DNA of 64,000 nt from NCBI GenBank assembly GCA_006969905.1, contig CP030887.1:186001-250000 (forward strand), written 5' to 3'. The stretch comes from Balneolaceae bacterium. GTDB lineage: Bacteria > Bacteroidota > Rhodothermia > Balneolales > Balneolaceae. A program made the translations under genes and the position numbers. Positions 33,225-46,303 of this stretch are shown here, piece by piece. Under the pieces are notes generated by a model. The model was given only the letters and a program-made list of their open reading frames with translations. It did no database searches and was not told the origin of the DNA. Each line of letters opens with the position of its first letter. Position 1 is the first letter of the stretch.

Positions 33225-33869
33225 ATGGCGCAGATTTTCCCTAAGTGGACAAATCAAGTTCCTCGCAAATTACTGATCGGTTTAATCGTTTCCGTTAACG
33301 TTTTAATATTAATCGTTTGGTATTTTTTCTCCCCCAAGTATACCGATGTAGGATACGCTCCTACCCAACCCGTTCCTTACAGTCATAAAGTACACGTGGA
33401 TCAGCTAGGCCTCGATTGCCAATACTGCCACACCAGTGTATTCGATTCCAAGCAGGCAAATGTACCTGCTACACAAACCTGTATGAACTGTCACAACCAG
33501 ATTTTAACAGATAGCGACAAGCTTGCCCCGATACGTGAGAGTTGGGAAACAGGCCAGCCTGTTGAATGGGTGCGGGTGAACAACCTGGCCGATTACGCAT
33601 ATTTTAATCATGCCGCTCATGTGAATGTGGGTGTTGGATGTGAAAGTTGCCACGGGCGGGTCGATAAAATGGAAATTGTATATCAAACCGAGCCTTTGAG
33701 TATGGGATGGTGTTTAGATTGCCACCGTGAACCCGAGAAGTTTTTACGCCCGGTTGAAGAAGTTACTACCATGGGGTACAAAGCGGAAAACCAGTCGCAA
33801 TTGGGAGCAGAACTGGTAGAAAAGAATAATGTAAGTCCTCCTGAATATTGCCAGGGCTGCCACTATTAA
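33225..33869 (+). CDS. actA: Alternative complex III subunit ActA, pentaheme cytochrome c
   Basis: First gene of the ACIII operon. The 214-residue protein has an N-terminal membrane anchor (about 17-36) and five CxxCH heme-attachment motifs: C65-H69, C86-H90, C139-H143, C163-H167 and C209-H213. Five hemes match ActA of Rhodothermus marinus. It belongs to the periplasmic electron-transfer arm that passes electrons from quinol to the terminal oxidase. It lies 33 bases before actB. Confidence 0.93.
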   Translation: MAQIFPKWTNQVPRKLLIGLIVSVNVLILIVWYFFSPKYTDVGYAPTQPVPYSHKVHVDQLGLDCQYCHTSVFDSKQANVPATQTCMNCHNQILTDSDKLAPIRESWETGQPVEWVRVNNLADYAYFNHAAHVNVGVGCESCHGRVDKMEIVYQTEPLSMGWCLDCHREPEKFLRPVEEVTTMGYKAENQSQLGAELVEKNNVSPPEYCQGCHY

Positions 33870-33902
33870 TCACTACGGATTTTTGAACATATATCATTAC
33901 TA

Positions 33903-36900
33903 ATGAGCGAAGTTAAACAAAATACTTACTGGAAGAGCCTGAACGAACTTGCTCAAAACCAGGAATACCAAAAATTTGTTGAACGAGAATTCCCTGAAAA
34001 TGCTACTGAACTTACTGACGGATTCTCACGTCGTGGCTTCCTCGCCATTATGGGTTCAGCGGTACTGTTGGCCAGTTGTGATTTCGCCCGCCGTCCGGTT
34101 CAAAAAATCCTTCCCTATTCCAAGCAGCCCGAAGATATTGTTCCAGGCATACCTTTATATTACGCTTCTGCTATTCCGTTTTTAGGAAGTACCAATGGTG
34201 TTGTGGTTGAAAACCATGAAGGCCGCCCAACTAAAGTTGAAGGGAATGAAATGCACCCGGGCAGTAAAGGTGGTACTAACATCTTTACCCAAGCCTCTGT
34301 TTTAGGCATGTATGATCCTGACCGGTCAAAGAATGTATTAAATAACGGAAATGAAGCCACTCTCGAAGGTTTCAGTTCTTTTGTGGCTTCCCATTTTGCA
34401 GATACTGACAAAACAATTGCTTTTATTTCTGAAGCAAACTCCTCCCCTACCTTTGCAAAACTTAAAAATGATGCTCTTTCGAAATTCGATAATGCAACAT
34501 GGACTACTTACGAGCCATTTGGTGAGGAAAACTCAGTAGCCGGAAACGAAATTGCCCTGGGAGAACGACTCAGAACCTATAACCACTTTGACAAAGCCGA
34601 TGTAATTTTATCCCTGAACGATGATTTTATGGCAGGTACTCATCCTAACAGTGTTGAGTATGCTAAAATGGTCAGTTCTCGCCGCAAGGTAACCGGCACT
34701 ACCGATACCATGTCCAGAATTTATTCTGTTGAGGACTCTTTTTCTTTAACAGGTTCTTTTGCTGATCACCGGCTTAAAATAAAAGCAAGTGAAGTTGCCG
34801 CATTTACCTATGCACTTGCAGCAGCACTTAGCCAAAGGGTTAATGGACTAGGGGCATTCAGCAACGTATCAAACAAATTCAGTAACCATGAATGGATTTC
34901 CGTTCTGGTAGATGAACTCTCTAACAATATGGGAAGATCGGTTGTAAGCGCGGGTTTACAACAAGCTCCTGAAGTACATGCAGCCGTCGCGGCTATTAAT
35001 ATTGCCTTAAACAACCAGGCTACCGTTTCATTTTTAAGTGTACCCCATTTAGAAGATGACAATACTTCATTAAATACCGTTGTTGATTCTTTAAAAGCCG
35101 GAAATGTAGATACCGTCGTATTAGTTGGAACTAATCCTGCTTTTACTGCTCAAAACCTGGGTTTTGCAGAAGCACTTTCAAATGCGAAAGAAGTAATCCA
35201 CCTTTCTGATTATGTGGATGAAACTTCCAAACTGGCGAGCTGGCATGTAAACCGGGCGCATTACCTGGAAAGCTGGGGGGATGGTTATTCTTTCAAAGGT
35301 GATCTATCTGTAATCCAGCCACAGATTCTGCCTTTATATAACGGAGTGAGTGAAATTGAGCTGCTTAACCTGATTGTAAATGGTGAGATGCAAAGCGGTT
35401 ATGACCTGGTACAGGATACATTCCGTGGATTATACAAAAGAAATTTTGAATCACGCTGGACAGACACCCTCCATGACGGAGTAGTAATTCGTAACCAATT
35501 TGATACAAATACATTCAGATTGGCATCAGGTTTCTCCTCAAGAATTTCTTCTGCTCTTAATGTAGCAGAAACCACCGGAATTGAAGTGGTTATCCGCCCT
35601 GATGGAACTTTATTTGACGGACGATTTGCCAACATAGCCTGGTTGCAGGAGCTTCCGGATCCTATGACAAAGATTACATGGGACAATGTAGCCTTAATGA
35701 GCCCTGCAACAGCAGAAAGCTTAGGTGTGGAAAACCAGGATGTCGTTGAAATCACCACCAATGGGCAGTCTGTTAAAATAGCAGCCTGGATACAGCCCGG
35801 TCATGTAGACGGTAGCATTACCCTTACAGTTGGCTACGGACGCGATGGAATTGGCCGTGTTGCTAACAGCTGGATTGATTATACAACTGGTGGCGTGGAT
35901 ACATACCCATTGTTAGGCTCTGGATTATTCTCTGAAGCAACAGTTTCTGCAACAGGTGATGATTATGACATCGCTTGTGTCCAGGATCATCACAGTCTTG
36001 AAGGCCGTGATATGTACCGGATGGCTACCATTGATGAGTACCGTGACAATCCTGACTTCGCCTCTTTCCTTGATGTTCATTTATATCCCGTTCCGGGCTT
36101 AAAGGAAGCTGCTAAAAAAGGGGAAGACCAACCGATTTCTCTATTTGATGAGCAAACCTACCCTGATTATGAGCCTCAGTGGGGAATGGCTATTGACCTG
36201 AATTCCTGCTTTGGCTGTGGAGTTTGTGTGATTGCATGTCAATCAGAGAATAATATCCCTGTTATCGGGAAATCTGAGGTTATGAGTGGCCGGGAAATGC
36301 ACTGGATTCGTAACGACCGGTATTTTGTAGGTGATGATGTAGAACAGCCTATGGCTGTACACCAGCCCGTACCTTGTATGCATTGCGAGATGGCACCTTG
36401 TGAGCAGGTTTGCCCGGTTGCAGCAACTACGCATAGCGAAGATGGAATGAACCAAATGACGTATAACCGTTGTATCGGTACCCGTTATTGTGCAAATAAC
36501 TGCCCTTACAAAGTACGTCGCTTTAACTTCTTCAACTATCCTAAAGAATTCCTCGCTACAGGTTCTGAGCCTGATATTATCCAGATGGCAATGAACCCGG
36601 AAGTAACTGTTCGTTTCCGTGGGGTTATGGAAAAATGTACGTACTGCGTGCAGCGGGTTAACAGGGCTAAGATTGATGCCAAAATTGAAACGGGTTCTCC
36701 AAAGCCTGCAGATGGAACAGTAAAAACTGCTTGCCAGCAAGCTTGTCCTGCAGATGCTATTTACTTCGGAGATCTTACAGACGAAAACAGCACGGTAGCC
36801 AAAATGAAGCGTAACGAGCGTAACTATCAAATGCTTGAAGAACTGAATACACGCCCACGTACTTCATATATGGCGAAATTAAGAAACCCAAACCCAGCTT

Positions 36901-36908
36901 TGGCCTAA
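33903..36908 (+). CDS. actB: Alternative complex III subunit ActB, molybdopterin-like and iron-sulfur fusion
   Basis: A 1001-residue periplasmic subunit. The N-terminus has a Tat-like SRRGFLAIMGSAVLLASC with Cys59 as a possible lipid anchor. The first about 740 residues resemble a molybdopterin oxidoreductase domain (VVENHEGRPTKVEGN, WHVNRAHYLESWGD), which in characterised ACIII has no cofactor. The C-terminal part (about 755-955) is a ferredoxin-type domain with four cysteine groups: CFGCGVCVIAC (Cys769-779), CMHCEMAPCEQVCP, CIGTRYCANNCPYK, and CTYCVQRV with ACQQACP. These would bind the [4Fe-4S] and [3Fe-4S] clusters of ACIII. The length is normal for the fused form. Confidence 0.94.
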   Translation: MSEVKQNTYWKSLNELAQNQEYQKFVEREFPENATELTDGFSRRGFLAIMGSAVLLASCDFARRPVQKILPYSKQPEDIVPGIPLYYASAIPFLGSTNGVVVENHEGRPTKVEGNEMHPGSKGGTNIFTQASVLGMYDPDRSKNVLNNGNEATLEGFSSFVASHFADTDKTIAFISEANSSPTFAKLKNDALSKFDNATWTTYEPFGEENSVAGNEIALGERLRTYNHFDKADVILSLNDDFMAGTHPNSVEYAKMVSSRRKVTGTTDTMSRIYSVEDSFSLTGSFADHRLKIKASEVAAFTYALAAALSQRVNGLGAFSNVSNKFSNHEWISVLVDELSNNMGRSVVSAGLQQAPEVHAAVAAINIALNNQATVSFLSVPHLEDDNTSLNTVVDSLKAGNVDTVVLVGTNPAFTAQNLGFAEALSNAKEVIHLSDYVDETSKLASWHVNRAHYLESWGDGYSFKGDLSVIQPQILPLYNGVSEIELLNLIVNGEMQSGYDLVQDTFRGLYKRNFESRWTDTLHDGVVIRNQFDTNTFRLASGFSSRISSALNVAETTGIEVVIRPDGTLFDGRFANIAWLQELPDPMTKITWDNVALMSPATAESLGVENQDVVEITTNGQSVKIAAWIQPGHVDGSITLTVGYGRDGIGRVANSWIDYTTGGVDTYPLLGSGLFSEATVSATGDDYDIACVQDHHSLEGRDMYRMATIDEYRDNPDFASFLDVHLYPVPGLKEAAKKGEDQPISLFDEQTYPDYEPQWGMAIDLNSCFGCGVCVIACQSENNIPVIGKSEVMSGREMHWIRNDRYFVGDDVEQPMAVHQPVPCMHCEMAPCEQVCPVAATTHSEDGMNQMTYNRCIGTRYCANNCPYKVRRFNFFNYPKEFLATGSEPDIIQMAMNPEVTVRFRGVMEKCTYCVQRVNRAKIDAKIETGSPKPADGTVKTACQQACPADAIYFGDLTDENSTVAKMKRNERNYQMLEELNTRPRTSYMAKLRNPNPALA

Positions 36909-36935
36909 GATATTAATCAGGAATACATCCAAAAC

Positions 36936-38363
36936 ATGAGCAAATACGAATATGTACCGGAACCAGCGCTTGTAAAAGGCAATCATGATTTTGCCAGTAT
37001 TACAAGGTTGGTAACTGATGTAAACTTACGACCTACACCAAAAGGATGGTATCTGGCCATGATTGGTGCCAATATCCTGCTTGGTGTTTTCCTGGTAGCA
37101 GTAGGCTACCTGATTTGGGAAGGAACAGGTATCTGGGGACTTAACAACCCGGTAGGCTGGGGTTGGGCCATCATCAACTTTGTATGGTGGGTTGGTATCG
37201 GGCACGCAGGAACCTTAATTTCTGCGATTCTTTTCCTCTTCCGGCAGAATTGGCGTACAGCCATTAACCGTTTTGCGGAGGCTATGACCATTTTTGCAGT
37301 AATATGTGCGCTGGTCTTTCCAGGTATTCACGTAGGGCGTATATGGGTAATCTACTGGGTATTCCCCATCCCTAACCAGATGTATATGTGGCCAAACTTC
37401 AACTCTCCCCTGCTTTGGGATGTATTTGCAGTATCCACTTATTTCACAGTTTCTTTCCTTTTCTGGTATGTTGGGTTGGTTCCTGACCTTGCTACACTTC
37501 GGGATCGTGCAGTAGATAAAATCCGGAAGTTTACGTATGGGTTATTCTCATTAGGTTGGACAGGTTCAAACCGCCACTGGTGGAACTATGAAAAAGCATA
37601 TATGATTCTGGCCGGCCTTGCTACACCCCTTGTACTTTCAGTACACACTATTGTATCCTTTGACTTTGCCGTTTCAGTAATCCCGGGTTGGCATACTACT
37701 ATTTTCCCTCCTTATTTCGTAGCCGGGGCTATCTTCTCCGGTTTCGCTATGGTACTTACCCTGATGATCGTAGCCCGTAAGATTTACGGCATGAAAGATA
37801 TTATGACGGATGATCACATGGAGAAGATGAACATCATCATTCTTGTGACGGGTTCTATGGTTGGTTTTGCATACGCCATGGAGTTTTTCATAGCATGGTA
37901 CAGCGGTGTGGAATACGAACAAGCCATTTTTATACTTCGGGCAACCGGGCCTTATGCATGGGCTTACTGGATCATGATGGCCTGTAACGTGCTTTCTCCC
38001 CAGTTCTTCTGGTCCAAGAAATTAAGAACCAGCGTAGGTTTCACCTTCTTTATCTCTATCGTGGTTAACATCGGTATGTGGTTCGAGCGATTTGTGATTA
38101 CGGTTACCTCACTTGCAACCGATTACCTACCCTCAAGTTGGGACTATTATTCTCCAACAATATGGGACGTTCTTACTTATGTTGGAACTTTCGGAATTTT
38201 CTTCACTTTCTTCCTTGCATTCCTTCGCTTCCTGCCAATGATTGCAATAGCTGAAGTGAAAATGATTTTACCACAAGCTGATCCTCATAACTATGATGAA
38301 ACCAGCAAAGAATATATAGCTCCTAAAGTGGAGCTTCCTAAACCTCAAGCGCAGAAGGTTTAA
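36936..38363 (+). CDS. actC: Alternative complex III subunit ActC, NrfD-like quinol-oxidising membrane protein
   Basis: A 475-residue membrane protein of the NrfD/PsrC family with about ten helices. Recognisable parts are [60 protein letters not shown] and [37 protein letters not shown]. It forms the membrane quinol site with ActF. The gene follows actB after 27 bases and precedes actD by 5. Confidence 0.94.
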
Positions 38364-38368
38364 AGAAT

Positions 38369-38929
38369 ATGAGTACTATTGATAAAAAAATAACAGAGCC
38401 GGAAAAACTATACGGTATACTTGCGGAGTTTCGTAACCCAAAAGAATTGGTAGATGTAGCCAAAACTATAGTAAAATCCGGGTACACTAAATTCGACACT
38501 TTCAGTCCTTTTCCGATTCATGGAATGGATAAGGCTATGAGCTTAAAGAAATCAAAGCTGGGATGGATCGTGCTTCTTCATGGCCTTTTTGGACTAATCG
38601 GTGCTATATCCATGATTTATTTTATGTCTGTAGTGGATTATCCTCATAATATCAGTGGAAAGCCGTTTCTTAACGGTCCTGCCTGGGTTCCGGTTACTTT
38701 TGAATTAACCGTACTTTTATCATCGTTTGGAGCTGTTTTTGGAATGTTTTTCTTAAATGGTTTACCAAAGCTTCATAATCCCCTTTTCAACGTAGCTCGC
38801 TTCAAAAAAGCTACCGATGATGGTTTCTTTGCCTATGTTGAAGCCGATGACACTCTTTTTGACTCTGATAAAGTTCGTAAGCTTTTTGAAGAAGCAGGCG
38901 CAACACATATTGAGGAAGTATATGACTAA
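38369..38929 (+). CDS. actD: Alternative complex III subunit ActD (DUF3341)
   Basis: A 186-residue protein with a short cytoplasmic N-terminal domain (LYGILAEFRNPKELVDVAKTIVKSGYTKFDTFSPFPIHGMDKAM) and two membrane helices (about 70-90 and 110-130). This is the standard DUF3341 layout of ActD, a structural subunit of ACIII without cofactors. Its stop codon overlaps the start of actE by eight bases (ATGACTAA), which suggests coupled translation. Confidence 0.93.
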   Translation: MSTIDKKITEPEKLYGILAEFRNPKELVDVAKTIVKSGYTKFDTFSPFPIHGMDKAMSLKKSKLGWIVLLHGLFGLIGAISMIYFMSVVDYPHNISGKPFLNGPAWVPVTFELTVLLSSFGAVFGMFFLNGLPKLHNPLFNVARFKKATDDGFFAYVEADDTLFDSDKVRKLFEEAGATHIEEVYD

Positions 38930-39956
38930 CAGAAACCTTAAAAGTACTTTGATGACCTCAAAGGGTATTTTAAAAATTGCCTGCGTGCTTGGATTAGGAG
39001 TAATGCTTACCGCTTGCCGGGGCCAGCTTTCTGAAAAGCCACCGATCCACCCGAATATGAATATGGATCAACAGGAACGAAAAGAAGCACAGGAAGTAAA
39101 TAAATTTTTTGACGACAACCGCTCTATGCGCCAGCCTGTACCAGGCACTATTGCCAGGGGCCTGAAAAAAGATGACACTGCTTACTATGAAGGTGTTGAT
39201 GCGCAGGGAAACTGGATTGCTGAAAATCCTGTAGAGCTTACAAAATCATTTCTCTATAGAGGCCAGGAGCGCTATGATATTTTCTGTACCCCATGCCATG
39301 GCGGAACCGGGGATGGCAAAGGAATTATAATGACAGGTGGGTATGGTTATGTGCCTGCCCCTACGTACCACTCTGACCGTCTTCGGGAAGCAACAGATGG
39401 CGAGCTCTACTCTGCAATTTACAATGGGGTAAGAACCATGCCTTCATATGCTACTCAAATTCCCGTGGAAGACCGATGGGCAATTGTGGCATACATCAGG
39501 GCTTTACAGGCAAGCCAGAATGTTGACGAGTCAGAGATGAACAATTATGATGTAGACCTAGCTGCCTTGCAGCAGGAATACAGAGATGAGCAGGACCGCC
39601 TTGCTGCATTAGCTGAAGCCAGGGCAAAAGAAGATGCTCCGGAAGCTACTCCTGAACTTGGTGAGCAGCTGGTTACCCAAAATGGATGTATTGCCTGTCA
39701 TAATATTGATGGTGCTGCAGGAGGAATCGGCCCTACATGGAAAGATCTTTTTGGTTTCGATGCTGAAGTAGTTACTGATTCCGGTGAACGCATGACCATT
39801 ACCGTAGATGAGGAATACCTTCGTGAGTCAATTATTAATCCTGCTGTCAAAAAACGAGTTGGATATGAGCAGGGTGTAATGATTGCATACGATTACCTTG
39901 CAGATCACGAAATTGATGCCATTGTGGCCTATATAAAATCGCTTAGCGACAATTAA
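38922..39956 (+). CDS. actE: Alternative complex III subunit ActE, extended di-heme cytochrome c lipoprotein
   Basis: A 344-residue lipoprotein cytochrome. The ATG at 38922 overlaps the end of actD; an alternative ATG at 38952 also precedes the signal peptide. The lipobox is VMLTAC (Cys32). The first heme domain has CTPCH (122-126) with the probable Met173 ligand in RTMPSYA, as in the mono-heme ActE of R. marinus. A linker of charged residues leads to a second domain with CIACH (256-260). This second domain closely matches the C-terminal cytochrome domain of the CoxB encoded 3.3 kb downstream. The extra heme could relay electrons directly to the oxidase. Confidence 0.9.
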   Translation: MTNRNLKSTLMTSKGILKIACVLGLGVMLTACRGQLSEKPPIHPNMNMDQQERKEAQEVNKFFDDNRSMRQPVPGTIARGLKKDDTAYYEGVDAQGNWIAENPVELTKSFLYRGQERYDIFCTPCHGGTGDGKGIIMTGGYGYVPAPTYHSDRLREATDGELYSAIYNGVRTMPSYATQIPVEDRWAIVAYIRALQASQNVDESEMNNYDVDLAALQQEYRDEQDRLAALAEARAKEDAPEATPELGEQLVTQNGCIACHNIDGAAGGIGPTWKDLFGFDAEVVTDSGERMTITVDEEYLRESIINPAVKKRVGYEQGVMIAYDYLADHEIDAIVAYIKSLSDN

Positions 39957-39980: not shown

Positions 39981-41201
39981 ATGAGTCATAAGCCTACCAT
40001 AACCGATTCTTTAGAATTCCCATCCGAAAGCCTGATTCCGCGTGCAGCCTTTGGCTTAGGTGTTGCAGGCCTTATCGCCAGCTTGGCCGGGTATTTCTTA
40101 AATGCAGATCAATTCTTTTTCTCATACCTGGTCAGCTTTACTTTCTTTACGGGTATTGCGCTTTCTTCCCTGATCATGATCATGTTTCATCACATTACAA
40201 AATCCTCATGGGGTGTTGTGGTTCGCAGAATCCCGGAAGTTTTCGCTTCCAATATCTGGATATGGGCTATTTTCTTTATTCCTATACTTCTTGGTATCCA
40301 TAACCTTTACCACTGGAGCCACCCTGAGCTGTTTGATAAGGCAAGTGCAGAGTTTGATAAAATCCTGTACGGTAAAAAGCCTTATTTAAACCAGACCTTC
40401 TTTATCATTCGCCAGTTTATCTATTTCATTATCTGGGGATATTTGGGACACAAACTCTATAAAGCTTCTAAAGAACTGGATGAAACCGGCGATTGGGGAA
40501 TTACCACTTATATGAGAAAACTCAGTGCTCCGGGTATTCTGTTGTTTTCCTTATCTATCGCTTTTGCAGGATTTGACTGGTTGATGTCGCTAGATCCTCA
40601 CTGGTTCTCTACCATGTTTGGAGTTTACTTCTTCGCCATCAACTTCCAGGCTTTCTGGCCGGTAATGATCCTTATGGTTTTCTTCCTCCAGCGCCAGGGA
40701 CTTTTAAAGAACACTATACAACAAGTTCACATTTATGACCTTGGAGCATGGTTTTTCGCATTCACTGTATTCTATGCGTATATCGCATTCAGCCAGTTCT
40801 TACTTATTTATTACGCCAACATCCCGGAGGAAACCCTCTGGTTCTATCATAGAATGGAACATGGCTGGGAATATATCGCCTACGGACTTCTCGGATTACG
40901 CTTTGTACTTCCCTTCATCGTACTGTTAAACCGGGAAAGCAAACACAATCGCACCATTTTAGGAATTGTATCTGTAATTGTGCTGGTCATGCATTTCCTC
41001 GAAATCTATTGGATTTCAATGCCGGCTATGCACCCGGGAGAAGGCCTTGGCATTCATTTTAGCTGGATTGACATTGCAACTTTCCTTGGGCTAGGCGGGA
41101 TTTTCTTTGGCATGTTTTTCAACCAGTTTAAAAAAGGCAGTATGGTTCCTCAAAACGATCCTAAGATGGATGACTGTCTTTCAAAATCTTATCACCAATA
41201 A
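39981..41201 (+). CDS. actF: Alternative complex III subunit ActF, quinone-site membrane protein
   Basis: A 406-residue membrane protein with about ten helices, related to ActC/NrfD. Features include WGVVVRRIPEVFASNIWIWA, GIHNLYHWSHPELFDKA, FAGFDWLMSLDPHWFSTMFGVYFFA, and FYAYIAFSQFLLIYYANIPEET, all usual for ActF. Together with ActC it embeds ACIII in the membrane. It is 10 bases upstream of the helix-turn-helix/anchor gene. Confidence 0.93.
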   Translation: MSHKPTITDSLEFPSESLIPRAAFGLGVAGLIASLAGYFLNADQFFFSYLVSFTFFTGIALSSLIMIMFHHITKSSWGVVVRRIPEVFASNIWIWAIFFIPILLGIHNLYHWSHPELFDKASAEFDKILYGKKPYLNQTFFIIRQFIYFIIWGYLGHKLYKASKELDETGDWGITTYMRKLSAPGILLFSLSIAFAGFDWLMSLDPHWFSTMFGVYFFAINFQAFWPVMILMVFFLQRQGLLKNTIQQVHIYDLGAWFFAFTVFYAYIAFSQFLLIYYANIPEETLWFYHRMEHGWEYIAYGLLGLRFVLPFIVLLNRESKHNRTILGIVSVIVLVMHFLEIYWISMPAMHPGEGLGIHFSWIDIATFLGLGGIFFGMFFNQFKKGSMVPQNDPKMDDCLSKSYHQ

Positions 41202-41211
41202 TTGCTGATTT

Positions 41212-41748
41212 ATGTCTTCTAAGCACAGCGCAAAATCTAAAGCTAACATCGCTCTTGAAGCACTTTCACTTTCTGAAAACGAATTGGATACACTAGCCGA
41301 AAAGCATGGCGTAACTAAATCAGAAATTAAAACCTGGATTAAGGATTTAAAGAAAAACGCCGCTGCCGTGTTTTCTGAGCAGGAAACCGAATCACATCAC
41401 CATCATGTTGCCGGTGAAGATGTTACTATTGAAACAGAAGACGAAGACCTTTACCGATATGTTCAGCATGGTGTTCATGAAGATAAACTGAATTACAAAA
41501 GACTGACTTTCTGGAGTGTTTTAGGTACTGCTTTGGTAATTATTATTATTGCTCTGTTGATCCCCTTTTCTCAAATGACTCTTTTTAGTGCACAAATGGA
41601 TGCATCAGCAAATAGCACTCCGGTAGAAATTCGCGAACTTAGAGCTCAGGATCAGGAAACGTTAAACAGCTTTGGTGTTGTTGATCTCGAAAACGGTATT
41701 TACAGAATCCCAATCGATAGTGCTATTTCTAAAATAGCCACAGAATAA
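41212..41748 (+). CDS. Membrane-anchored protein with IS3 OrfA-like helix-turn-helix domain, in the respiratory operon
   Basis: A 178-residue protein I cannot assign to a named family. Residues about 10-56 (ANIALEALSLSENELDTLAEK, HGVTKSEIKTWIKDL, NAAAVFSE) read like the N-terminal helix-turn-helix of IS3-family transposase OrfA proteins, including the typical end of that domain. An acidic stretch with a run of four histidines (62-65) follows, then one membrane helix (about 100-120) and a 58-residue C-terminal tail likely in the periplasm. It lies 10 bases after actF and 3 bases before the SCO gene, so it is cotranscribed. It could serve as a structural or assembly factor for ACIII or the oxidase, with the histidines binding copper. 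There is no catalytic transposase part. Confidence 0.8.
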   Translation: MSSKHSAKSKANIALEALSLSENELDTLAEKHGVTKSEIKTWIKDLKKNAAAVFSEQETESHHHHVAGEDVTIETEDEDLYRYVQHGVHEDKLNYKRLTFWSVLGTALVIIIIALLIPFSQMTLFSAQMDASANSTPVEIRELRAQDQETLNSFGVVDLENGIYRIPIDSAISKIATE

Positions 41749-41751
41749 TAC

Positions 41752-42588
41752 ATGAACCGCTTTGCACTGTTAGCTTTTACTTTGCTTGCAGTGCTTTATG
41801 TACCCGCAAATATTGCGATTGCGCAGGTTAACAACAGTCAACCTGAAGTGCTGCAAGGCGTAGGCGTTGAGGAAAAACTTGGAAATTTCATTCCTCTTAA
41901 CGCTACTTTCTCCACTATAGATGGGGACAGCACCACTCTGGGTACTCTCCTGGAACAAGGAAAACCTGTTATTCTTAATCCGCTTTATTATGACTGTCCG
42001 ATGCTATGCGGCCTGGTTATTGACGGCATGATTGATGTGGTTGATGACTTGGCATGGCAACCCGGTAAAGATTACCTGATTATCTCGTTCAGTATTGATC
42101 CGCTTGAAGACCATAACGTGGCAGCCACTTACCGGACCCAGTACCTCGGCAAACTGAAAAATACAGACGCTGAAACAGGCTGGTATTTTTTAACGGGTAA
42201 CAAAACCCAGATTGATAAAGTAGTAGAATCCGTTGGCTTTAAGTACACAGAAGTTCAGGGTACGGGTGAATATGCACACAGTGCGGCAATTATCATGCTA
42301 AGCCCTGAAGGCAAAATTACCCGTTACCTTTATGGCATTCGCTATAATGAATTTGATGTTCGCAACGCACTTTATGAATCTGCGGACGGAAAAATTGGGA
42401 GTACCCTGGAAAAAGTAATTATGTATTGCTACCAGTACGACCCAAGCTCTGGTAGTTATATTCCTCTGGCAATGAATATTATGAAGCTTGGAGGCTTGGC
42501 TACACTAATTATTCTCGGTATATTCCTCACCATTTTTTGGGTTCGGGAAAAACGTAAAAAACTAACCTCTAACATCGATTTTAACTAA
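41752..42588 (+). CDS. SCO-family copper chaperone for the oxidase CuA site
   Basis: The 278-residue protein has a signal peptide, a thioredoxin-fold SCO domain and a C-terminal membrane helix (about 242-265). The copper-binding pair is Cys82 and Cys86 in DCPMLC, and the distal ligand His176 is in EYAHSAAI. SCO proteins deliver copper to, or reduce, the CuA site of subunit II. The next gene encodes just that subunit, and the SCO stop overlaps the coxB start by one base (TAATG). Confidence 0.93.
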   Translation: MNRFALLAFTLLAVLYVPANIAIAQVNNSQPEVLQGVGVEEKLGNFIPLNATFSTIDGDSTTLGTLLEQGKPVILNPLYYDCPMLCGLVIDGMIDVVDDLAWQPGKDYLIISFSIDPLEDHNVAATYRTQYLGKLKNTDAETGWYFLTGNKTQIDKVVESVGFKYTEVQGTGEYAHSAAIIMLSPEGKITRYLYGIRYNEFDVRNALYESADGKIGSTLEKVIMYCYQYDPSSGSYIPLAMNIMKLGGLATLIILGIFLTIFWVREKRKKLTSNIDFN

Positions 42589-43526
42589 TGGGCAGATTAT
42601 TTGATTTCATGCTTCCTGAGGCTAAATCGCCTACAGCAGACAGCACCGACGCCTTATTCCATTTTATAAATGAAGTTAGCCTTGTATTACTTCTTGGAAT
42701 TACAATCGCCATCATTTATTTCGCAGTAAAGTACCGAAGGCGATCAAAAGATGACAAAACTCCCGTTATCACACACAACAATGCCCTGGAAGTTACCTGG
42801 TCGGTTATTCCCCTTATGCTTACCCTTGTAATTTTTTGGTGGGGGTATACCGGTTGGTTAAATCTGAGGGCTGTTCCCGATGATGCGTATGAAGTAAAAG
42901 TAACCGGTTTTAAATGGGCCTGGAACTTTGAATATGAAAATGGGGCTGTCAGCCCGAATGAACTGCATGTCCCGGCAGGTCGCCCTATTAAACTGGTAAT
43001 GATATCGCGGGACGTTCTTCACTCCTTTTATGTTCCTGAGTATCGTGTAAAACACGATGTTATCCCCAATCGCTATACGTATGTTTGGTTTGAAGCTGAA
43101 GAACCCGGTGAATCACAAGTATATTGCACTGAATATTGCGGTACCTCTCACTCCATGATGCTTGCAAAAGTAATTGTACATGAACCGGAAGAATTTAATA
43201 CCTGGCTGGCTACTGCGAACATTCCGGGATCAGGCACTCCGGTTGAACAAGGAAAGGCCCTTGTTGAAACCAACGCATGCCAGTCCTGCCATTCTCTTGA
43301 TGGTTCAGATTTAATCGGTCCTTCTTTTAAAGGGATTTGGGGACGCGAAGAGCTTATGTCTGACGGTACAACTATTACTGTTGATGAGAATTATATCAGA
43401 GAGTCAATACTTAATCCCGGAGCCAAGATTGTTGACGGTTACCAAAACCAGATGGCTTCTTATCAGGGTTTACTAGATGATGACCAGATTGATGCTATTA
43501 TTGAATATTTAAAAACACTTGAGTGA
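42588..43526 (+). CDS. coxB: Cytochrome c oxidase subunit II with fused cytochrome c domain
   Basis: A 312-residue caa3-type subunit II. Two membrane helices (about 25-47 and 70-92) are followed by the CuA cupredoxin domain: His145 ([10 protein letters not shown]), Cys180, Glu182, Cys184, His188 and Met191 ([12 protein letters not shown]). The C-terminal domain (about 215-312) binds heme c through Cys231-Cys234-His235 (CQSCH). It accepts electrons from ACIII or its cytochrome and passes them to subunit I. The short membrane segment sequence is typical of the enzymes from Rhodothermus and Bacteroidota. Confidence 0.95.
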
Positions 43527-43527
43527 T

Positions 43528-45282
43528 ATGGCTACAGCTGAAGCAACAACAAAAACGCTGAAGGTTCAGCGTTTCAAACCTTCTGAAAACCCAACGAACA
43601 CTTACCTGACTGATGAGAAAGGTGTTTGGGCATGGATGACAACCGTTGATCATAAGAAAATCGGGATCATGTATCTCGTGGCAGTTGCTTTTTTCTTTGC
43701 ATTAGGTGGTTTTCTGGCAATAGCTCTACGTACAAAGCTCCTCACTGGGGCATCTATCGATTTTATTGACGCTGATGCTTACAACCAGCTCTTTACGCTG
43801 CATGGTGCAATCATGGTATTCTTTGTGCTGGTACCTAGTATACCCGCTGCACTTGGAAACTTTATTATGCCCATGCAATTGGGTGCAAAAGACGTTGCCT
43901 TTCCACGGCTAAACCTCGCGAGTTTCTACATCTATGTGGTTGGCGCCATTTTCACCTTTATAGCTCTGGCTCTTAATGGCCTGGACACTGGCTGGACTTT
44001 TTATACACCTTACAGCACTGAATCTGGTTCCAGTGTAATATGGGTAACCACAGGGGTATTTATCCTTGGGTTCTCTTCTATTTTGACAGGAACAAACTTT
44101 ATCACAACCATTCATAAGCTCCGGGCACCCGGTATTACCTGGAGTAAGCTTCCGCTCAATATCTGGGCATTATATGCTACTTCCGTAATCCAGGTTTTAG
44201 CAACTCCTGTACTTGCCATCACTTTACTACTGCTTATCATGGAGCGTTGGTTAGGTATTGGTATTTTTGACCCGGCAATGGGCGGAGACCCTGTTTTGTT
44301 CCAACATTTCTTCTGGTTCTATTCTCACCCGGCTGTATACATTATGATTGTTCCGGGATTCGGAATTATTTCAGAAGTAATTTCAACCTTCTCAAAGAAA
44401 ACAGTTTTTGGCTATTGGGCTATTGCTCTTTCTTCGCTAGCTATCGCTTTTATTGGTTTCCTGGTTTGGGGGCATCATATGTTCACCTCAGGTCAGTCAG
44501 CCGTAGCAACTACCGTGTTTTCCTTCCTTACTTTCCTTGTGGGGATTCCAACGGGTATCAAGATATTTAACTGGGTTGCCACACTTTATAAAGGCTCGAT
44601 AAAAATGGATACGCCGATGTTGTATGTGTTCATTTTCTTATTCCTTTTCTCCATAGGTGGATTTACAGGTATTATGCTGGGTACACTTTCTGTGAATATT
44701 CACTTGCATGATACTTACTACGTAGTAGCTCACTTTCACTATGTAATGATGGGCGGAACACTTATAGCCCTGCTTGCAGGCTTACATTACTGGTGGCCCA
44801 AAATGACAGGTAAAATGTATAATGAGCGGTTAGGAAAAGTTTCTGCCGTACTTATCTTTATTGGCTTTAATGTCACCTTCCTCCCCCAGTTTGTAATGGG
44901 TTCTCAGGGTATGCCAAGGCGTTATTACAATTATATTGATCAGTTTGCTCCTTTCCATCAAACGTCGACTATTGGGTCATACATACTTGGAGTTGGGTTC
45001 CTGATCATGCTGTATTATTTACTCCACTCCCTCTTCAGAGGAGAAAAAGCCCCTGCTAATCCATGGGGAAGCCGTGCGCTGGAATGGCAGGCTACTTCAC
45101 CTCCCGACTTCCATAACTTTGGACACACACCCGTCGTGATCCATGGCCCTTACGACTATCACCAACCCATGGAAGAATTCCAGCTAGGCATTGCAGTTGA
45201 TACCAATGGACATGGTAAAGACACACATGTTGAGCCTGATGATCCAGAATTGGATAAGTGGAAAAATTACAGCCTCGGCTAA
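43528..45282 (+). CDS. coxA: Cytochrome c oxidase subunit I, A2-type heme-copper oxidase
   Basis: The 584-residue subunit I has 12 membrane helices. I start at the ATG at 43528 right after the coxB stop; an upstream TTG would overlap it. His92 (LHGAIMVFF) is a heme a ligand. The CuB site shows FYSHPAVY with His267 and Tyr271, GHHMFTSG, and the heme ligands in [17 protein letters not shown]. The Glu of canonical GHPEVY is missing, and Tyr265-Ser266 precede the His. This YS motif defines the A2 subclass, whose proton channel uses the tyrosine. Dioxygen is reduced to water with proton pumping. Confidence 0.96.
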
Positions 45283-45313
45283 GAAATTAATAACCAATAA
45301 TCGGAAGATATAG

Positions 45314-45967
45314 ATGGCGAATCATTCATCAACACATCCAGCTCATGTTCAGCATCACTTTGTTGATTCTGAACAGCAGTTTGATAGTGCAAAAATGGGA
45401 ATGTGGGTATTCATTGTAAATGAAGTACTCTTCTTCGGGGGATTATTTTGTGCCTACATCGTTTTTAGAACCTGGTACCCTGATCTTTTCACACAAGCAG
45501 CTACCCAGTTAGATACATTTTGGGGAGCTGTAAATACAGTGGTTCTCATAGGTAGTAGTTTAACGGTAGCAATGGCTATCCGGTCTGCCCAAAAAAATCA
45601 GCAACGCGGACTTGAAATAAACCTTCTTATTACTATTGCTCTGGCTTGTGTATTCCTGGTTATTAAGTATTTCGAGTACTCCCATAAAATCCATATTGGT
45701 ATCCTTCCGGGAGCTGAAAACTATACTTTTGAAGGTATTGATCACCCCTTAGCTCACGTCTTTTTTGGGATTTATTATATCATGACAGGGGTTCACGGAC
45801 TCCATGTTATTGTAGGTATCGGCTTAATGCTTTGGATCTACTTCAGGGCTCGCAAAGGCGAGTTTGGAAGTGAGTATTACACTCCTGTTGAAATAACCGG
45901 CCTGTACTGGCACCTGGTTGACTTGATCTGGATTTTCCTATTTCCACTACTTTATTTAATTGAATGA
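45314..45967 (+). CDS. coxC: Cytochrome c oxidase subunit III
   Basis: A 217-residue membrane protein with about five to six helices, shorter than the classic seven-helix form because it lacks the first two, as in bacterial caa3 oxidases. Typical parts are SAKMGMWVFIVNEVLFFGGLFCAYIVFR, YFEYSHKIHIGILPG, IYYIMTGVHGLHVIVGIGLMLWI and YWHLVDLIWIFLFPLLYLIE. Subunit III stabilises the catalytic subunit. It lies 31 bases after coxA. Confidence 0.95.
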   Translation: MANHSSTHPAHVQHHFVDSEQQFDSAKMGMWVFIVNEVLFFGGLFCAYIVFRTWYPDLFTQAATQLDTFWGAVNTVVLIGSSLTVAMAIRSAQKNQQRGLEINLLITIALACVFLVIKYFEYSHKIHIGILPGAENYTFEGIDHPLAHVFFGIYYIMTGVHGLHVIVGIGLMLWIYFRARKGEFGSEYYTPVEITGLYWHLVDLIWIFLFPLLYLIE

Positions 45968-45982
45968 TAAGAGGACTTAATA

Positions 45983-46303
45983 ATGAGCGATAATCATAAA
46001 CACGGACATCATATTTCCACACCTGCACAGTTATGGGCTGTAGGTGGCGCATTAATTGTACTAACTATCGTAACTGTACTTTTTGCAAGGGTTATTCATT
46101 TACCCTATCCTTTTAACATCATAACTGCACTGGCAATAGCTTTTACGAAAGCAGGACTGGTAGCAGCTTTCTTTATGAACCTGTACTGGGATGTAAAATT
46201 TAACTTAATGTTACTCATAGCATCTCTTGCATTCTTTATCTTAATGGTAGCAATCACTTTGCTTGATACGCTGTACCGAATTGAAGTGGTTCCTTCTTTT
46301 TAA
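45983..46303 (+). CDS. coxD: Cytochrome c oxidase subunit IV family protein
   Basis: A 106-residue protein with three predicted membrane helices (about 18-38, 43-68 and 75-97) and the pattern ALAIAFTKAGLVAAFFMNLYWD that identifies small subunit IV proteins of prokaryotic caa3 and quinol oxidases. It starts at the ATG at 45983 with a GAGG ribosome site at 45971. It is the last gene of the respiratory operon, 24 bases before a strong terminator. Confidence 0.92.
   Translation: MSDNHKHGHHISTPAQLWAVGGALIVLTIVTVLFARVIHLPYPFNIITALAIAFTKAGLVAAFFMNLYWDVKFNLMLLIASLAFFILMVAITLLDTLYRIEVVPSF

Follow-up and report, generated by a model that had tools for sequence, protein, structure and literature searches.

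The protein encoded at 41212–41748 of the window (the whole stretch of DNA analysed, 64,000 nucleotides of a complete Balneolaceae genome of 3.49 Mb) is a respiratory subunit with an N-terminal domain that appears to come from a transposase. With near certainty, the body of the protein is ActG, which has been described as the seventh subunit of alternative complex III (ACIII) but is poorly understood, and the head of the protein is very probably of the IS3 OrfA type. The domain fusion on this known subunit is real and well conserved. It offers a clear example of a respiratory complex that has taken in the DNA-binding fold of a transposase, a fold that has apparently lost its DNA-binding charge. 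The overall explanation that we consider probable is that an OrfA-type head was domesticated on ActG and now docks a cytoplasmic partner. ActG is the least understood subunit of ACIII, and the headed family gives a handle on its role and on the partner beneath the complex.

The neighbourhood of the gene is a full ACIII–caa3 cluster (Table 1). The gene lies, in the exact coordinates and frame of the original prediction, between actF and the gene of the SCO copper chaperone: the actF stop at 41201 is followed by 10 bases and the ATG of actG at 41212, and the actG stop at 41748 is followed by three bases and the SCO start at 41752. Upstream, ActA has a multihaem c domain, ActB has Fer4 and molybdopterin-type (Fe-S) domains and ActC has an NrfD domain; ActD matches PF11821 (E 5e-62) and ActE comprises two cytochrome c domains. 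Downstream, CoxB contains COX2 and cytochrome c domains, CoxA a COX1 domain and CoxC a COX3 domain, and the gene after coxC probably encodes subunit IV, judging by its position and size. The actE reading frame as listed (from 38817) overlaps the 3′ end of actD (38817–38929), and its real start is probably further downstream. Window ActE (38817–39956) has two CxxCH haem motifs, as do other Balneolaceae and one genome of a sister family (L084), whereas ActE in other families of the order has one; the second cytochrome c domain may have been gained near the origin of the clade of Balneolaceae and L084.

Table 1. Coordinates of actG, of the parts of its product and of the neighbouring genes in the window.
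Feature	Position	Strand	Basis
actG, 178 aa, ActG-family subunit with N-terminal IS3 OrfA-type HTH head (head assignment very probable)	41212..41748	+	ORF reading, homologues, synteny, profiles
HTH_Tnp_1-like head, residues 1–56	41212..41379	+	Pfam, AlphaFold2, OrfA HMM
Linker, residues 57–76, weakly conserved; HHHH at residues 62–65 (41395–41406)	41380..41439	+	Alignment, pLDDT
Conserved cytoplasmic juxtamembrane stretch, residues 77–97, EDLYRYVQHGVHEDKLNYKRL; the ActG core begins here	41440..41502	+	Alignment of 86 homologues
Sole membrane helix, residues 98–120, N-terminus inside	41503..41571	+	Hydropathy, positive-inside rule
ActG signature of the periplasmic tail, LNSFGVVDLENGIYRIPIDSAI	41662..41727	+	Core profiles
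actF, upstream neighbour, ActC paralogue; no Pfam match at 1e-5	39981..41201	+	Synteny, Pfam
SCO1/SenC copper chaperone, downstream neighbour	41752..42588	+	PF02630, E 1.4e-10
actA, actB, actC, actD, actE	33225..39956	+	Domain matches
caa3 oxidase genes coxB, coxA, coxC and probable subunit IV gene	42588..46303	+	Domain matches

The expected order of parts in the protein is borne out by hydropathy and by the AlphaFold2 model: an HTH-like head is followed by a patch of four histidines (HHHH), one membrane helix and a tail of ~57 residues. Hydropathy peaks in the window of residues 99–117, a single TM helix is predicted, and a cofactor motif is absent from the window ActG. Lys and Arg residues are more numerous on the N-terminal flank of the membrane helix in 59 of 86 homologues and on the C-terminal flank in 11 of the 86; by the positive-inside rule, the head would be on the cytoplasmic side. 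The HHHH patch is a genus-level feature, and residues 59–70 of the linker that contains it have pLDDT values below 50. Copper binding by this patch was considered and rejected, the patch being predicted on the cytoplasmic side and not conserved beyond the genus.

In line with the original prediction, the gene is conserved in related operons. A protein search found a homologue in 91 of 98 related genomes at E ≤ 1, and at nearly every related locus that covers both neighbours the gene has actF before it and SCO after it, all three being on one strand. Named genomes, when scanned, yielded 73 loci, nearly all in the actF–SCO slot. The slot is common to seven lineages (Rhodothermota, Balneolales, KSB1, Zixibacteria, Gemmatimonadota, Phycisphaerae and Silvanigrellales) and the named genomes with it include Rhodothermus sp., Roseithermus, Longimonas and Balneolaceae; one of the related loci (L085) shares 71% identity with a named Rhodothermus sp. 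locus. In Salinibacter, the gene is found directly after actF, yet SCO was not detected before coxB.

The part common to the homologues spans residues ~76–178 and consists of the juxtamembrane stretch, the single membrane helix and the periplasmic tail. The conserved tail ends in the motif 'GVVDxExGxYRIPID(S/R)A', and the 'RIPIDRAM' tail matches that of the solved Chloroflexus ActG. The top PDB match of the core profiles is the solved ActG 8k9e_G (E 0.002 and 5.3e-4); this match to Chloroflexus ActG is in the tail and spans only ~40 residues of it. The ActG-named PDB chains matched belong to 8k9e, 8k9f, 8x2j and 9ilt, which are Chloroflexus complexes. The ~40 tail residues and the synteny suggest that the ActG proteins of Rhodothermus and of Chloroflexus are one family. 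The R. marinus complex has ActG as its seventh subunit; a single TMH is predicted in it, and it is known from mass fingerprinting of the complex, without density in the map (PMC5928083). In the Cr respiratory operon of Chloroflexus, actG is followed by SCO (PMC3150298). Chloroflexus ActG has been called specific to Chloroflexus and absent from R. marinus (PMC9316378), and this paper and PMC5928083 are at odds over the presence of Chloroflexus ActG in R. marinus. The view that no described family has the layout of the window protein does not hold for its body, which is a subunit already named in the complexes of R. marinus and Chloroflexus; novelty is confined to the head.

A different N-terminal domain, of 110–150 residues and FN3-like by eye, is carried by the Salinibacter-type ActG of Rhodothermales (L129, L132, L134, L141, L144, L146, L147, L151, L156, L157 and L168). 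Searches of Pfam at 1e-3 and of PDB profiles at 0.1 gave no match to it. The N-terminus of ActG seems to collect domains.

The resemblance of the window N-terminus to the head of IS3 OrfA was recovered from both sides. With an HMM built from genuine IS3 OrfA only, taken from related genomes, the window protein scores 37.5 bits; the best of 1000 shuffles reaches 7.7 bits and headless ActG at most 0.2 bits. The reverse profile, built from ActG heads only, agrees: it recovers real IS3 OrfA genes with E-values down to 1.7e-11, and most of the OrfA genes so recovered have an rve-type OrfB overlapping them or adjacent after them. The Pfam family HTH_Tnp_1 (PF01527) matches 21 of 24 heads, with a best E of 3.4e-8, and in a whole-genome family-model search its curated cut-off was passed in five orthologues (G028, G010, G025, G008 and G034). 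For the window copy alone the best E in Pfam is 0.008–0.04, below the curated cut-off, and the window protein as a single query had no match in the genome contigs and none in the PDB; it took alignments of the whole family to make the assignment firm. Judged by the OrfA HMM, the head profile and Pfam in the orthologues, the similarity to OrfA-type HTH domains is significant. Together with the conserved operon position, the OrfA HMM also upholds the original prediction that a membrane protein encoded in the ACIII operon carries a domesticated OrfA-type head.

The predicted structure is consistent with this assignment. AlphaFold2 gives three helices, at residues 7–18, 22–32 and 36–58 (the third runs to 41385), with a head pLDDT of ~95; the isolated head, modelled alone, has a pLDDT near 79. 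In a VIA-align comparison, the joint top match is 2rn7, the IS3-type OrfA TnpE from Shigella (Z 5.8, rmsd 3.4 Å, 55 residues), a rank that it shares with other HTH and homeodomain folds, so the structure is evidence for the fold rather than for the family. A Foldseek search with the isolated head returned only generic homeodomain-like matches, which are weak (best E 0.56).

Among the 129 genomes of the order that were searched, the OrfA-type head is present on ActG in 71 of 92 Balneolaceae genomes, counted as frames of ~165–220 aa, and in none of the other 37, where the matches are OrfA-sized frames. The Balneolaceae examined include Gracilimonas, Fodinibius/Aliifodinibius and Rhodohalobacter. 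In a tree of ActF and SCO, the headed rows are all members of a single supported clade that also includes 11 headless rows; headless ActG accounts for 11 of the 53 Balneolaceae rows. The tree is naturally read as one gain and then four to six losses, with a minimum of five changes, a count that does not in itself distinguish gain from loss. Stubs of the head persist in headless ActG (MSDKQNSEHK in L021 and YSSESKAKED in L042), which indicates in-frame deletions. A search with PF01527 at 1e-3 gave no match in the window genome or its genus; the head is therefore inherited and not derived from a resident IS.

Three other accounts of the head were rejected. A recent IS insertion does not fit the gene, which has no OrfB and is flanked by actF and SCO at 10 and 3 bases in an ancient, conserved position, with no PF01527 match in the genus. 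A start-codon artefact is at variance with the codon-level purifying selection within the head. A resident paralogous head could not have served as the donor, since a search for resident paralogues found no second strong head in the window genome. In a literature search of open-licence papers, no published fusion of an OrfA head with ActG was found. The combination of an OrfA-type head and ActG appears to be undescribed, and the protein is a novel form of ActG rather than a family of its own.

At the cytoplasmic end of ActG there is, in sum, a head that is recognisable, selectively kept and repeatedly lost. Such a pattern might be left by a neutral or weakly useful relic, an IS3 fragment that has remained as a tolerated, folding N-terminal extension with no specific partner. 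The repeated clean losses fit this reading, as do the weak conservation of the linker behind the head and the pairs in which the head evolves faster than the core (L003/L005 and L018/L028). However, dN/dS of the head is far below 1 in the informative pairs (0.02–0.30 where there are enough substitutions, and 0.44 in one very close pair), and on this codon-level evidence the head is under purifying selection. The residues of the HTH core are kept across 42 sequences (K10 in 42/42, W42 in 41/42 and A17 in 40/42), and the head is present in 71 of 92 Balneolaceae genomes. The relic reading is quite unlikely.

The charge of the head has changed profoundly. The recognition helix has a mean charge of -1.8 (-4 to +1, n = 41) in ActG heads and +1.8 (+1 to +3, n = 15) in OrfA; the corresponding values for the N-terminal arm are +0.4 and +4.4. 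For the whole head, the mean is -2.4 (-8 to +2) in ActG against +6.3 (+4 to +9) in OrfA; the Mann–Whitney p of 1e-8 is overstated, as related sequences are not independent, and the main point is that the two whole-head ranges do not overlap. In this comparison, the basic arm and the basic recognition helix of OrfA were not found in ActG heads; given this loss, the head most likely no longer binds DNA. Charge and fold together make docking, rather than DNA binding, the likely function. The window head is among the least acidic (+1 for the whole head and +1 for the recognition helix), so weak DNA binding is possible in the window species.

These data weaken the suggestion that the protein is a membrane-tethered DNA-binding protein linking respiration to transcription. 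A transcription factor of this kind, similar to ToxR or CadC, would sense the state of ACIII–caa3 through its tail and helix and bind operators with its head. The head does belong, by fold and by family, to the DNA-binding domains, it is placed on the cytoplasmic side by the positive-inside rule, and the window copy retains Lys36, Lys40, Lys44 and Lys47–48 in or after the recognition helix. Yet throughout the family the basic arm and recognition helix of OrfA are gone and the net charges do not overlap, the head lacks the winged HTH that is typical in ToxR and CadC, and it was lost on several occasions from a gene and operon that persisted. A regulatory function is unlikely, and less likely than docking, though the case against it is weakest for the window species. 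It is scarcely conceivable that the head serves Balneolaceae signalling proteins in general for regulation or dimerisation and that ActG uses it to talk to a two-component kinase with the same head. PAS–HisKA_2 kinases beginning with this head do exist in G018 (L088:4052–6034) and G009 (L231:1474–3456), but these are only 2 of 92 Balneolaceae genomes; the window genome is not one of them, and it has no second strong head.

In the window's genus, the head has a history distinct from its surroundings in one group of loci. L008 and L007 (G006 and G007) share ~94–98% DNA identity with L003 and L005 (G001 and G003) in actF, the ActG core and SCO, but 70–72% in the head. Between L003 and L007, mismatches are dense at 1517–1684 of L003, corresponding to actG codons 6 to 62, and dS is 0.91 in the head and 0.06 in the core. 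This is best read as a replacement of the head alone in one recombination event, whose boundaries would coincide with those of the head. Among the remaining close pairs that were compared, divergence of the head is mostly in step with that of the flanks, and the exchange is a single clear case. An exchangeable head might be a specificity cassette that still binds nucleic acid and tethers ACIII–caa3 to the chromosome or to its own operon. This is very doubtful; if true, such tethering would couple the respiratory state or the assembly site to gene expression.

According to the docking explanation, which we prefer, the coding sequence of an IS3 OrfA HTH would have been fused in frame before actG in an ancestor of Balneolaceae, the composite nature of the gene being visible in the sequence. 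The head is predicted to form a three-helix HTH facing the cytoplasm, and the purifying selection on it would reflect a role in docking other proteins. The ActG helix and the periplasmic IPID tail would anchor it in the ACIII–caa3 assembly, where it may recruit or align a cytoplasmic partner, possibly a neighbouring complex, an assembly factor or another ActG. Several lineages have deleted the head alone yet kept ActG, so the function of the head would be accessory.

Four known systems can be compared with the window protein. The HTH_Tnp_1 domain of IS3 OrfA (PF01527; 2rn7) is, like the ActG head, a trihelical HTH with the pattern FKAxVAxEAL...LAEKxxVxxxxIxxWxxxLxxxAxxxF, but the ActG head has no OrfB or IS context, is net acidic instead of strongly basic and is fused to a membrane subunit. 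Solved and biochemically known ActG (8k9e_G; R. marinus) shares the gene position, the single TM helix and the periplasmic (Y)RIPIDRAM-type tail motif. ActG outside Balneolaceae lacks the HTH head, and the Balneolaceae protein is longer by ~55 residues and a linker. ToxR and CadC likewise combine a cytoplasmic domain of the DNA-binding type with one TM helix and a periplasmic part; unlike ActG, they have a winged HTH with DNA-binding charge and are not subunits of respiratory complexes. RodZ, which participates in the cell shape of E. coli, has the same layout as the headed ActG, with a cytoplasmic HTH, a single TM helix and a periplasmic C-terminus, and its HTH, which binds MreB, serves protein assembly. 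No RodZ-type HTH family was among the Pfam matches listed for the ActG head. RodZ differs from ActG in belonging to an unrelated HTH family, in its periplasmic part and in serving cell shape and not respiration; the likeness is an analogy only, with a protein whose topology has been established and whose HTH is required for function (PMC4890886).
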